This document shows positions 4,691 through 16,353 of a stretch of DNA of 28,354 nt, one piece after another. This DNA is from an uncultured Gemmatimonadota bacterium (GTDB taxonomy: Bacteria; Gemmatimonadota; Gemmatimonadetes; Gemmatimonadales; Gemmatimonadaceae): NCBI GenBank assembly GCA_946480295.1, contig CAMLIT010000051.1, forward strand, positions 1 to 28,354, read 5' to 3'. Below the pieces are notes generated by a model. It ran no database searches. It worked only from the letters and a program-made list of their open reading frames with translations, and was not told the DNA's origin. A program made the position numbers and the translations under genes. Positions within the stretch are counted from its first letter, which is position 1; each line of letters opens with the position of its first letter.

Positions 4691-6113
4691 TCAGGCGCGC
4701 CGCAGCTGTCGATCGATGCTCTCCGCCGCGTCGCGGCCTTCGCGGATCGCCCACACGATCAGCGAGGCGCCGCGGTGCGTGTCCCCCGCCGCCCACACCC
4801 CGGGCACGCTCGTGCGGTGCTCGGCGTCGGTCGCCACGTTGCCGCGCGCGTCGAGCCGCACGCCGAGCCCGTCGAGCAGGGGGCCGCGCTTCGGGCCGGT
4901 GAAGCCCATCGCCAGCAGCACGAGGTCGGCCTCGATGGTGAAGTCGCTCCCCGCCACCGGCGTCGGCCGCATCTGGCCCACGGACACCTCGCGCATGTCC
5001 ACCCGCACGGCGTGGAGGCGCTTCACGTGCCCGTGGTCTCCGGAGAACGCCGTGGTCGAGACGCTCCAGTCGCGCTCCGTCCCCTCCTCGTGCGCGTGCG
5101 AGGTGCGGAGCTGCATCGGATAGAGCGGCCAGGGCGTGCTCGCGGCGCGCTCCGCCGGCGGCGCGGGGAGCAGCTCGAACTGCTTCACGCTGCGCGCCCC
5201 CTGCCGGATGCACGTGCCGGCGCAGTCGGAGCCGGTGTCGCCGCCGCCGATGATGACGACGCGCTTCCCACGCGCCGAGATCGCCTGCTCGCTCGGCAGC
5301 TGGTCGCCGGCGAGCCGCCGGTTCTGCTGCATGAGGAAGTCCATCGCCAGATGGATTCCCCCGAGCTCGCGCCCCGGAATCGGCAGGTCGCGCGGCGTCT
5401 CCGCACCCGCGGCGAGGCAGATCGCCTCGAACTCGCTCCGCAGCGCCGCGAGGTCCACGTCCACGCCGACGTTCACGCCCGTGCGGAACTCCACCCCCTC
5501 CGCGCGGAGCTGGTCGAGCCGGCGGTCGAGCACCGCCTTCTCCAGCTTGAACTCGGGGATCCCGTAGCGGAGCAAGCCGCCGACGCGATCGTTCTTCTCG
5601 AAGACGACGACGGTGTGCCCCATCCGCCGGAGCTGCTGCGCGGCGGCGAGCCCCGCGGGCCCCGAGCCGACCACGGCGACGCGGCGTCCCGTCTCCGTCA
5701 TCGGCGGCTGCGGCGCCAGCCAGCCCTCGGCGAACGCCCGGTCGGCGATCGCCTGCTCGATGCTCCGGATCGTCACCGGCTGGGCGATGAGGCCGAGGAC
5801 GCACGCGGACTCGCAGGGCGCGGGACAGAGCCGGCCGGTGAGCTCGGGGAAGTTGTTCGTCGCGTGCAGCGACGCCGATGCCTCGCGCCACTGCCCCTTG
5901 TAGACCAGGTCGTTCCACTCCGGGATCACGTTGCGCACGGGGCAGCCGGTGTCGCCCTGGCAGAAGGGGACGCCGCAGTCCATGCAGCGCGAGCCCTGCG
6001 CGCGCAGCTCCTCCTCGGGGAGGGTGTCGTAGAACTCCCCCCAGTGCTGCACGCGCTTCTCCACCGGCTGCCGCGGCGCGGTCGCGCGGCGGAGCTTCAG
6101 GAACCGCTTCGGA

Positions 6114-6121
<8 letters not shown>
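4691..6121 (-). CDS. gltD: Glutamate synthase small subunit
   Basis: This is the NADPH-oxidising beta subunit of glutamate synthase. It passes electrons through FAD and iron-sulfur clusters to GltB, which makes glutamate from glutamine and 2-oxoglutarate. The 476-aa length is normal. The N-terminal cluster-binding domain shows C46-x2-C49-x4-C54-x5-C60 and a second set, C99, C103 and C107. An FAD Rossmann motif follows ([14 protein letters not shown], about 148-161), then the NADPH Rossmann motif [15 protein letters not shown] in the middle. The C-terminal [23 protein letters not shown] closes the FAD site. It overlaps the end of gltB by 8 nt, so the two subunits are translationally coupled. 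Confidence 0.97.
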
Positions 6122-10697
<4,576 letters not shown>

Positions 10698-10735
10698 GGC
10701 ATCGCTGATCTCCTCGTGGGGTGTCTACACACGAC

Positions 10736-10768
10736 GGGGCCCCTCCGGTTCAGCTCCGGAGGGGCCCC
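10736..10768 (-). terminator. Attenuator hairpin in the gltB leader
   Basis: A 13-bp perfect stem (ggggcccctccgg paired with ccggaggggcccc) with a 7-nt loop lies between the leader ORF stop (10795) and gltB. Its 5' arm on the minus strand contains CCTCCGG (10762-10756). That is complementary to CCGGAGG inside the end of the leader ORF (10817-10811), giving a 7-bp competing pairing. The downstream sequence gtcgtgtgtag is only mildly U-rich. The hairpin may also stop ilv operon readthrough. Confidence 0.65.
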
Positions 10769-10794
10769 TTCGCGCGCTCAGTCTATCCTTCCCG

Positions 10795-10893
10795 CTACGC
10801 GTCGGCCTCGCCTCCGGTCCAGCCCCGAATAATCTCGCGCTTCGGAAGAAGCGGGAGAGTAAGGAGGTGGAGACGAAGCATCGAAGCGCGCAT
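10795..10893 (-). CDS. Putative Leu-rich leader peptide of gltBD
   Basis: This is a 32-codon frame too short for routine annotation. It starts MRASMLRLHLLTLPLLPKR, continues EIIRGW and ends TGGEADA. Seven of the first sixteen residues are leucine, coded CTT four times and CTC three times, with two ATT isoleucines and one Trp codon further on. An ATG at codon 5 (10881) is an alternative start. No strong Shine-Dalgarno is seen. It lies 34 nt downstream of a good -10 box and is followed by a 13-bp hairpin. I infer a ribosome-stalling leader peptide that senses charged tRNA-Leu. It has the same parts and spacing as the leader before ilvD, which strengthens the call. Confidence 0.6.
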   Translation of the reverse strand: MRASMLRLHLLTLPLLPKREIIRGWTGGEADA

Positions 10894-10927
10894 CGCGAGT
10901 GATTCGTGTGAGAGATCGTTCCCAGCG

Positions 10928-10956
10928 AACGTACGCCTCGACACGGTGCGAGTCAA
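10928..10956 (-). promoter_or_regulatory. gltB leader promoter
   Basis: TTGACT (10956-10951), a 17-nt spacer and TACGTT (10933-10928) form a good sigma70-type promoter. It starts 17 nt after the ilvC stop. The expected start site is near 10921, leaving a leader of about 220 nt before gltB. Confidence 0.7.
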
Positions 10957-10972
10957 GAGCATTGGTGCGCAA

Positions 10973-11995
10973 TCAAGCCCCGCCAGCGCCGGGCACGACC
11001 TCCTTCGGATTCACGAAGGGCATCATGCGCCGCAGCTCGCGCCCCACCTGCTCGATCTGGTGCTCGGCCTCGCGCTTCCGCCGCTGGGCGAAGCGCGGCC
11101 GCCCCTTCCGGTTCTCGTCGATCCACTCCTTCGCGAACTCGCCGTTGCGGATCCGCTCGAGCAGCCCGCGCATCGCCTGCCGCGTCTCGTCCGTGATGAT
11201 CCGGTCGCCGGCGACGTAGTCCCCGTATTCGGCCGTGTCGGACACCGAGTAGCGCATGTAGTTCAGCCCACCCTGGTAGAACAGGTCCACGATGAGCTTG
11301 AGCTCGTGCAGGCACTCGAAGTACGCGACCTCGGGCTGGTAGCCCGCCTCGACGAGCGTCTCGAACCCCGCCTTCACGAGCGCGGAGGCGCCGCCGCAGA
11401 GCACCGCCTGCTCCCCGAAGAGGTCCGTCTCCGTTTCCTCGGCGAAGGTCGTCTGGAGGACCCCGGCGCGCGTGGAGCCGATCCCCTTCGCGTACGCGAG
11501 GGCGTCCTCCAGCGCGTGTCCCGACGCGTCCTGGTGCACGGCGACGAGCGCCGGCACGCCGCCCCCCGCCTGGAACACCTCGCGCACGCGGTGGCCCGGC
11601 GACTTCGGCGCGACCATGCTGACGTCCACTCCCGCCGGGGGCACGATCTGGCAGTACCGCACGTTGAAGCCGTGCGCGAACATGAGCGTCTTCCCCGGGC
11701 GGAGGTGCGGCTCGATCTGCTCGTGGTAGAGCTTCGCCTGCTCGGTGTCCGGCGTGAGGATCATGATGATCTGCGCCTCGTCCGCCGCCTGGGCGACGGT
11801 GCGCACGCGGAGGCCGGCCTGCTCGGCCTTCGCCCAGCTCTTCGAGCCCTCGTAGAGGCCGACGCGGACGTCGCAGCCGCTGTCGCGCAGGTTCAGCGCG
11901 TGGGCGTGGCCCTGGCTGCCGAAGCCGATCACGGCGACCGGGCGGCCGTGGAGCCGCTCCACCGCGGCGTCGTGGTCGTAGAACAGACGGGTCAT
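10973..11995 (-). CDS. ilvC: Ketol-acid reductoisomerase (class I)
   Basis: IlvC isomerises and reduces acetolactate or acetohydroxybutyrate to the dihydroxy acids of valine, leucine and isoleucine synthesis, using NADPH and Mg2+. The 340-aa size is that of class I enzymes with a single knotted domain. The nucleotide motif is at 22-40 ([19 protein letters not shown]), followed by the cofactor-specificity loop [10 protein letters not shown]. The active-site His is in FAHGF (H108). The Mg ligands fall in D191-LFGE-195 and in E227-CLHE-231. It is the last gene of ilvDBNC, starting 13 nt after ilvN. Only 17 nt separate its stop from the next -35 box, and no separate terminator is visible. Confidence 0.97.
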
Positions 11996-16186: not shown

Positions 16187-16210
16187 GGCCCCTTCCGTTG
16201 GGAAGGGGCC
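16187..16210 (-). terminator. ilv leader hairpin 3:4 (candidate attenuator terminator)
   Basis: A 10-bp perfect stem (ggccccttcc paired with ggaaggggcc) with a 4-nt loop is the last stable structure before ilvD. The minus-strand tail is tcgtcgtctcgg, so there is no canonical U run. Its 5' arm can instead pair with the 3' arm of the preceding hairpin. Confidence 0.6.
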
Positions 16211-16232
16211 GTGTCCGGCTCCAGAACTCGAA

Positions 16233-16257
16233 CGCCCCTCCCAGGGTGGGAGGGGCG
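16233..16257 (-). promoter_or_regulatory. ilv leader hairpin 1:2 (candidate pause/protector structure)
   Basis: An 11-bp perfect stem (cgcccctccca paired with tgggaggggcg) with a 3-nt loop lies 27 nt after the leader-peptide stop. Its 3' arm (16243-16234) can pair with GCCCCTTCCCA of the next hairpin (16209-16199), giving 10 bp with one bulge. That makes an alternative 2:3 antiterminator. A GGGAGG right after the leader stop (16284-16279) is complementary to CCTCCC in the 5' arm. Confidence 0.6.
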
Positions 16258-16284
16258 CTGCGTTGCCGCGGTGCTCGGCCTCCC

Positions 16285-16353
16285 TTAAGCGCGTGCTCCC
16301 GTAATAAGGAGCCCGGTAAGAAGAAGGCTGAGTCGAAGCGAAAGACGCGGCAT
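16285..16353 (-). CDS. Putative ilv operon leader peptide
   Basis: This is a 22-codon frame starting MPRLSLRLSLLLTGLL and ending ITGARA. Eight of the 22 residues are leucine and one is isoleucine. Six of the eight leucines use CTT, a codon not seen among the first 13 leucines of leuB. Rare codons at the regulating amino acid are a known hallmark of attenuation leaders. The frame starts 34 nt after the -10 box of a strong promoter and is followed by two hairpins with mutually exclusive pairings before ilvD. The Shine-Dalgarno is weak (GAGA). I infer that stalling at Leu codons when charged tRNA-Leu is low allows transcription into ilvDBNC. Confidence 0.7.
   Translation of the reverse strand: MPRLSLRLSLLLTGLLITGARA

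Follow-up and report, generated by a model that had tools for sequence, protein, structure and literature searches.

On the minus strand of the window, by which is meant the whole stretch of 28,354 nucleotides analysed here, a pheA-like gene is followed by ilvD, ilvB, ilvN and ilvC and, after a gap of 275 nt, by gltB and gltD, the genes for the two subunits of glutamate synthase (GOGAT). The names pheA, ilvDBNC and gltBD are those we take these genes to deserve, and they are backed by matches to relatives. The best identities found among genomes of the phylum of G001 (67% for gltB and 83% for ilvD) place the window in the Gemmatimonadota, probably in the family of genome G243; its ilvC is 83% identical to that of G243. 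The gene order of G243, ilvD-ilvB-ilvN-ilvC-gltB-gltD, is also that of the window, but in the window gltB is equipped with a Leu-coded leader of its own. The nearest relatives of the window are G243 and G305 (the contig of the latter stops inside gltB). In both, gltB overlaps the stop codon of ilvC (ATGA), so that there is no leader between the two genes and gltB would come under the ilv leader instead. The features of the locus are collected in Table 1.

Table 1. Genes, leader elements and pairing segments at the ilvDBNC-gltBD locus of the window.
Feature	Position	Strand	Basis and remarks
gltD, glutamate synthase small subunit	4691..6121	-	ORF; also 3' of gltB in G243; name presumed
gltB, glutamate synthase large subunit	6114..10697	-	ORF; gltB-type relatives matched; name presumed
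GAGGAG, likely gltB ribosome-binding site	10710..10715	-	sequence; putative function
Terminator-like 13-bp hairpin	10736..10768	-	5' arm 10768-10756, 3' arm 10748-10736
Segment 2, CCGGAGGCGAGG	10806..10817	-	CCGGAGG (10817-10811) complementary to CCTCCGG (10762-10756)
glt leader ORF, 32 codons, ATG at 10893	10795..10893	-	sequence
Hairpin CGCTTC-TTCC-GAAGCG spanning Leu codons 15-16, possibly for pausing	10838..10853	-	fold; putative function
Candidate control codons, Leu codons 6-16	10846..10878	-	sequence
Segment 1 (protector), CTTCGTCTCC, Leu codons 6-9	10869..10878	-	can pair with GGAGGCGAGG (10815-10806)
Promoter-like -10 box TACGTT, 17-nt spacer, 34 nt to leader ATG	10928..10933	-	sequence
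Promoter-like -35 box TTGACT	10951..10956	-	sequence; consensus scanner silent
ilvC, at the end of ilvDBNC, separated from gltB by 275 nt	10973..11995	-	ORF
ilv attenuator	16187..16284	-	GGGAGGCC 16284-16277; hairpin 16258-16233; second hairpin 16211-16187
ilv leader ORF, MPRLSLRLSLLLTGLLITGARA and stop, ATG at 16353	16285..16353	-	upstream of ilvD

The candidate gltB leader and its possible pairings

The promoter-like boxes, the 34-nt spacing, the 32-codon frame with its seven Leu codons, the CCGGAGG segment and the 13-bp hairpin, all described in the sequence-only reading of this DNA, were recovered base for base. The -10 box of the putative transcription start is a weak one, matching the consensus TATAAT at three of six positions, and the consensus scanner returned no promoter and no terminator with a T-run between 10500 and 11200. 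The leader frame would be translated into the peptide MRASMLRLHLLTLPLLPKREIIRGWTGGEADA, and its stop codon ends at 10795; no Shine-Dalgarno box was seen before its ATG. Leu stands at codons 6, 8, 10, 11, 13, 15 and 16 (four CTT and three CTC), and seven Leu among the first 16 residues constitute the clustering of control codons by which classical attenuators are recognised. When the ilvC-gltB gap was shuffled 20,000 times with its dinucleotides preserved, no ATG frame with at least seven Leu in 16 residues arose, and CTT accounts for four of the seven Leu codons of the leader versus 4 of 383 in the seven neighbouring coding sequences (binomial 4e-7). The hairpin, GGGGCCCCTCCGG-AGCTGAA-CCGGAGGGGCCCC, has an estimated energy of -31.8 kcal/mol, carries CCTCCGG in its 5' arm and ends 38 nt before the gltB ATG; directly 3' of it follows GTCGTGTG, and a U-tract is absent. 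The same shuffling gave a hairpin of this class in 11 of 20,000 cases; the folding z-score was -4.51. The run of Leu codons, the choice of CTT and the hairpin all exceed chance.

Two further helices can be drawn within the leader, one between segment 2 and the 5' arm of the hairpin (antiterminator) and one between segment 1 and part of segment 2 (protector). Taken alone, neither is significant, as 644 of 5000 codon shuffles equalled or bettered the 10-bp protector helix and 272 of 2000 shuffles did so for the 7-bp antiterminator helix; duplex estimates over wider segments were, in this order, -19.2 and -22.5 kcal/mol, versus -31.8 kcal/mol for the hairpin. The protector and the terminator coexist in the ribosome-free fold, and the minimum-energy fold retains the terminator when the upstream part is removed at several stall sites. 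Because the static folds keep the terminator, the antiterminator must win kinetically, by forming first. The small hairpin over Leu codons 15-16 could pause the polymerase.

It was proposed in the sequence-only reading that a ribosome finishing the leader frame would mask CCGGAGG. On an estimate of the ribosome footprint, only part of this segment would be covered by a ribosome that has reached the stop codon; the protector pairing (10878-10869 with 10815-10806), a third helix beside the hairpin and the antiterminator, could hide CCGGAGG once a ribosome has moved past without stalling. A ribosome-mediated attenuator is the best reading of these elements, and it is probable that translation of the leader peptide governs this candidate transcription attenuator of gltBD. 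When charged Leu-tRNA for CTT and CTC is scarce, the ribosome would stall within codons 6-16 and would keep the Leu-codon region off segment 2, whereupon the freed CCGGAGG may capture the emerging CCTCCGG of the 5' arm before the 3' arm has been made; with the terminator blocked by this pairing, gltBD would be transcribed. With ample Leu-tRNA, the ribosome would run on, segment 2 would be covered or re-paired with the Leu-codon region and, thus occupied, would leave the 13-bp hairpin to stop transcription, presumably without the aid of a U-tract. This protector, antiterminator and terminator logic is that of classical attenuators.

Leaders before gltB and ilvD in the Gemmatimonadota

A gltB match was obtained in 86 of 298 genomes of the phylum and in 52 of 179 genomes of the G243 family, two sets that overlap. 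An initial screen for leaders with at least five Leu in the first 16-22 residues had suggested that the leader of the window was unique and had overlooked the Asn-rich and mixed leaders, which were uncovered by a hairpin scan before gltB; a fixed-length terminator scan, which overlooked several leaders including that of the window, was superseded by a three-part detector requiring a terminator, a leader ORF and an antiterminator. The detector was applied to 113 sequences from 110 genomes, plus the window, with hits counted by genome. In the survey of gltB upstream regions, rows without the gltB 5' end (L123 included) were dropped, and L219 and L221-L223 were scanned by coordinates. The detector fired before gltB in 38 of 110 Gemmatimonadota genomes, two of which (L104 and L221) look spurious by eye. 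The corresponding figures were 2/342 for shuffles and 3/114 for reverse complements of this set, 1/79 for the gltB loci of other groups (assigned by record titles) and 0/91 for control windows (coding, 0/52; 1 kb upstream, 0/39), while 13 of 26 ilvD upstream regions were detected as a positive control. The elements of an attenuator are present and in order in the window, and the design recurs before gltB in the phylum.

The detector being strict, the 23 family genomes in which gltB shows an identity of 56% or more across a stretch exceeding 140 residues were also inspected by hand. A strong hairpin stands before gltB in 17, and in 16 of these it is preceded by a short ORF (L116 is cut by its contig, and the hairpin of L115 was read from the sequence without a score); the remaining genomes comprise the two in which gltB is fused to ilvC and four without an attenuator (G370, G001, G026 and G311). 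An orthologous Leu-coded leader was not found before gltB among the genomes searched, the window being so far alone in having a Leu-only leader. For the refuting condition that the sequence-only reading had set on gltB upstream regions the outcome is mixed: a hairpin with a leader occurs in a large number of relatives, but they lack the Leu run, and the two nearest relatives are leaderless because gltB overlaps ilvC.

A conserved type of leader, designated class A, belongs to the family of G180, in which gltB was present in 46 of 102 genomes and class A leaders were read in 31. A conserved GCCCGCTC...GAGCGGGC hairpin precedes gltB in 17 of 107 upstream regions (104 genomes scanned, besides the window), each from a different genome. 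The end of the class A frame contains GGGAGCG or something close to it, and the hairpin contains its complement, CGCTCCC. In class A and in the window alike, the end of the leader frame could pair with the 5' arm of a GC hairpin located immediately upstream of gltB; the window differs in carrying CCGGAGG and CCCCTCCGG in place of the GGGAGCG at the ORF end and the GCCCGCTCC in the terminator, class A being further distinguished by the combination of GGGAGCG with GCCCGCTCCC, a T-containing tail, promoter repeats resembling ARG boxes and an Asn-rich peptide. Across the 31 sequences, 97.7% of the antiterminator cells are paired, versus 44-71% when the segments are slid; 39 of 500 column shuffles also reach 97.7%, which makes the within-column evidence weak. 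Compensatory changes, with both sides altered, were seen in one of nine terminator pairs and one of seven antiterminator pairs, and such near-nil covariation would be anticipated where segments 2, 3 and 4 restrict one another. A search of 102 genomes for the paired class A motifs gave at least one match in 72; by eye, matches accompanied by the leader-end sequence belong to known gltB sites or to contigs carrying a partial gltB (G375, G376 and G262), and the others among the matches listed look fortuitous. A backwards control pattern also matched many genomes. Within this family, G380 was seen in part and G375, G376 and G262 through the motif pattern only, and the leader count leaves aside G381, G234, G208, G390, G391, G107, G398 and G402, some of them fragments.

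AT-rich repeats, GTATATTTAT and TGCATAATTAATAC among them, that resemble tandem ARG boxes occur in several class A promoters (L172, L178, L184, L186, L189, L240 and L257), and the arginine repressor family (Arg_repressor, PF01316) is encoded in 37 of 41 genomes of the G180 family. The class A frames of L189, L199, L203 and L255 (MHKHT...) start within the ARG-box-like ATGCATAAACATACG, so that operator and leader codons may overlap. Upstream of gltB in G268 (L240 / L183), an ARG-box-like promoter and a GCCCGCTCC hairpin are found with the leader frame missing, perhaps as a degenerate attenuator; before gltB in G016 (L257) and G240 (L099), no attenuator was seen.

The ilv leader of the same window provides a yardstick. 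Its spacer of 17 nt and the distance of 34 nt to its ATG are identical to those of the glt leader, the 34-nt correspondence having been pointed out in the sequence-only reading; it holds eight Leu codons (six CTT and two CTC), and its second hairpin likewise has no U-tract. A leader frame dense in Leu, Ile and Val precedes ilvD at 23 of 27 loci of the G243 family (ilvD 72-83% identical), one of the four loci without it, L152, being cut by its contig. Most of these leaders are then followed, by eye, by one or two GC hairpins, and that of G311 (L133) has a single hairpin, like the glt leader of the window. CTT or CTC makes up 158 of 182 Leu codons in the ilv leaders of the 23 relatives, as a raw count without background usage. 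The earlier claim of a leader-peptide attenuator of gltBD is accordingly favoured by the anatomy and by similar leaders before the gltB of relatives and before 23 of 27 ilvD genes, but its Leu-only coding is, as far as seen, confined to the window.

Proposed signal, origin and mode of termination

What the gltB leaders encode bears on the signal to which they would respond. In the class A control regions (31 leaders, 507 codons), Asn is encoded 59 times in frame versus 7 and 2 times off frame, and Lys 23 times versus 0 and 3; the absence of in-frame stops is by construction. Asn is enriched 6.5-fold over the gltB coding background, with p-values that are too small because the sequences are related. 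The contrast between frames suggests that the class A reading frame is under selection. These control regions are also nearly devoid of acidic residues (one Asp and no Glu in frame), with 35 Asp and 37 Glu being read in one of the off frames. A set of 17 further and more diverse gltB leaders, several of the ORFs of which were picked by eye, shows a mild excess (1.8- to 2.8-fold) of Asn, Lys, Ile and Pro. The idea that class A genomes lack AsnS, with Asn-tRNA reporting glutamine by transamidation, found no support, asnS having scored above the cut-off in 53 of 61.

It is possible, if rather doubtful, that the signal in the window is broader than leucine, with a shortage of several amino acids or generally slow translation relieving termination. 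Such a signal would be in keeping with the mixed gltB leaders of the phylum, enriched as they are in Asn, Lys, Thr, Ile and Pro, and with the fact that almost every amino acid draws its amino group from GOGAT. The leader of the window, however, contains no Asn, has the highest Leu content of 49 leaders (7 in 16 residues, followed by 6 in L228, with a mean of 2.1 in leaders other than that of the window) and encodes Leu solely by CTT and CTC. Leucine remains the presumed signal for the window. The earlier proposal that leucine supply sets GOGAT expression must be narrowed, applying at most to the lineage of the window because the gltB leaders of relatives favour other residues.

As to origin, the gltB attenuators found in many genomes of the phylum are the likeliest ancestors of the glt leader, which would have changed its code to leucine in the setting of gltBD behind ilvDBNC. 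Given how often gltB leaders occur in the family, it would be simplest to assume an ancestral gltB leader that was re-coded here and lost after the fusion in G243 and G305. A tentative alternative, which would leave the mechanism unchanged, is that the glt leader was copied from the ilv leader of the same genome. The identical 17- and 34-nt spacings speak for copying, as does the end-to-end alignment of the two ORF regions (z 3.0, reached in 5 of 300 shuffles; whole leaders, z 2.3, 8 of 300). This similarity is weak and inflated by the shared Leu codons, however, and L084, one of nine gltB leaders of kin, scores about equally (z 2.9, 4 of 300); the glt leader, moreover, has a single hairpin whereas the ilv leader of the window has two, and the frequency of gltB leaders in the family also tells against a copy. 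Returning to descent with re-coding, its extension to the whole phylum appears to us evenly poised between right and wrong: a widespread set of gltB attenuators in the Gemmatimonadota would have been re-coded to Asn (with Lys, Thr and Ile) under ArgR-type promoters in one family, to mixed codons in the family of the window and to Leu alone in the lineage of the window, while in its sister genomes gltB became fused to ilv and leaderless. A coupling of GOGAT to branched-chain amino-acid supply would result from either arrangement, the leader of the window or the fusion seen in G243 and G305; it makes sense because branched-chain transamination uses glutamate, and it may be adaptive.

That the hairpin is something other than an intrinsic terminator, acting through Rho, as an element of RNA processing or stability, or in the control of gltB translation, is unlikely. 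No U-tract follows it, the scanner found none, and the tails of the equivalent hairpins in its kin G310, G309 and G362 are U-poor as well; yet T-rich tails follow the equivalent hairpin in many relatives, and the hairpin of the window ends 20 nt upstream of GAGGAG and leaves this site uncovered. Least probable of all is that the hairpin is merely the 3' terminator of ilvDBNC, the Leu-rich frame fortuitous and gltBD served by an ordinary promoter or by read-through, since, although the hairpin does lie downstream of ilvC, where read-through transcripts must cross it, and although neither switching helix is significant alone, the Leu-rich frame was absent from all 20,000 shuffles, CTT makes up about 1% of Leu codons nearby, and a terminator with a leader ORF also precedes gltB where the fetched stretch shows no ilvC match.

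Relation to known leaders and to the control of glutamate synthase

Leader peptides precede ilvB in Actinobacteria according to PMC1262725, in which replacing the control codons of the Streptomyces coelicolor ilvB leader is stated to have had no effect, so that attenuator anatomy alone can mislead. Related work comprises a leader-peptide reporter study of Mycobacterium ilvB1 (PMC13236596), papers on the leader-peptide attenuators of ilvBNC in Corynebacterium and Mycobacterium (PMC10272879 and PMC11857589) and one on a leucine-rich attenuator peptide in Staphylococcus aureus (PMC5794164). The leader of the window resembles these branched-chain attenuators in its short ORF with control codons and its GC hairpin before the first gene, and it also has the segments for alternative pairing; it differs from them in its target, gltBD not being an amino-acid biosynthetic operon, in its occurrence in the Gemmatimonadota, and in the lack of a U-tract and of a visible Shine-Dalgarno box.

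For glutamate synthase itself, the gltD (SRC-18-1) motif and the glutamine riboswitch are given in PMC8632094 as RNA candidates preceding glutamate synthase genes; they share with the present candidate the control of GOGAT by a cis-acting RNA, but are presented there as ligand-binding candidates without a leader peptide. Shewanella gltBD is placed under LiuR and ArgR in PMC3223726, and E. coli gltBD under Lrp in the title of a reference cited there. Such control similarly ties gltBD to leucine, branched-chain or arginine supply, but through DNA-binding proteins and not by attenuation. The published controls of GOGAT found in these papers are DNA-binding regulators or riboswitch-type RNAs.

The statement in the sequence-only reading that no attenuator of this kind has been described for gltB held among open-licence papers, judged by titles, the beginnings of abstracts and passages: no leader-peptide attenuator of gltB was found in this full-text literature, papers on asparagine leaders included, nor was any paper on leader peptides in the Gemmatimonadota. 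Rfam release 15, to which that reading had also referred, gave no match at gathering score in the window or in 15 loci of relatives, the matches at 10690-10980 lying far below gathering scores, and none in the five ilvD leader loci of relatives tested (L133 and four others). What is new in the gltBD candidate would be its target, its phylum and, probably, its re-coded signal, the mechanism of attenuation being already known. A translation-based sensor, if true, would let tRNA charging directly set nitrogen assimilation. The relatives moreover offer a series of natural variants in which different amino acids seem to be read by a single type of switch, and this makes the evolution of an attenuator signal testable. 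The results as a whole point to leader-peptide attenuation in the Gemmatimonadota at both gltB and ilvD.

Some minor features of the ilvD leaders were also observed. In several of them (L130-L155), CTTATT or CTTAC lies within a small hairpin located towards the close of the control codons. In L140, L142 and L153, the leader starts, by eye, a few bases past a -10-like box (in L140, TATCAT, 8 nt and ATG), and since the start adjoins the box, these leaders may be translated from leaderless transcripts. Finally, in L162 (G347) the ilv leader is located between ilvD and a leuB match immediately upstream, so that a leader is present inside a leu-ilv cluster as well.
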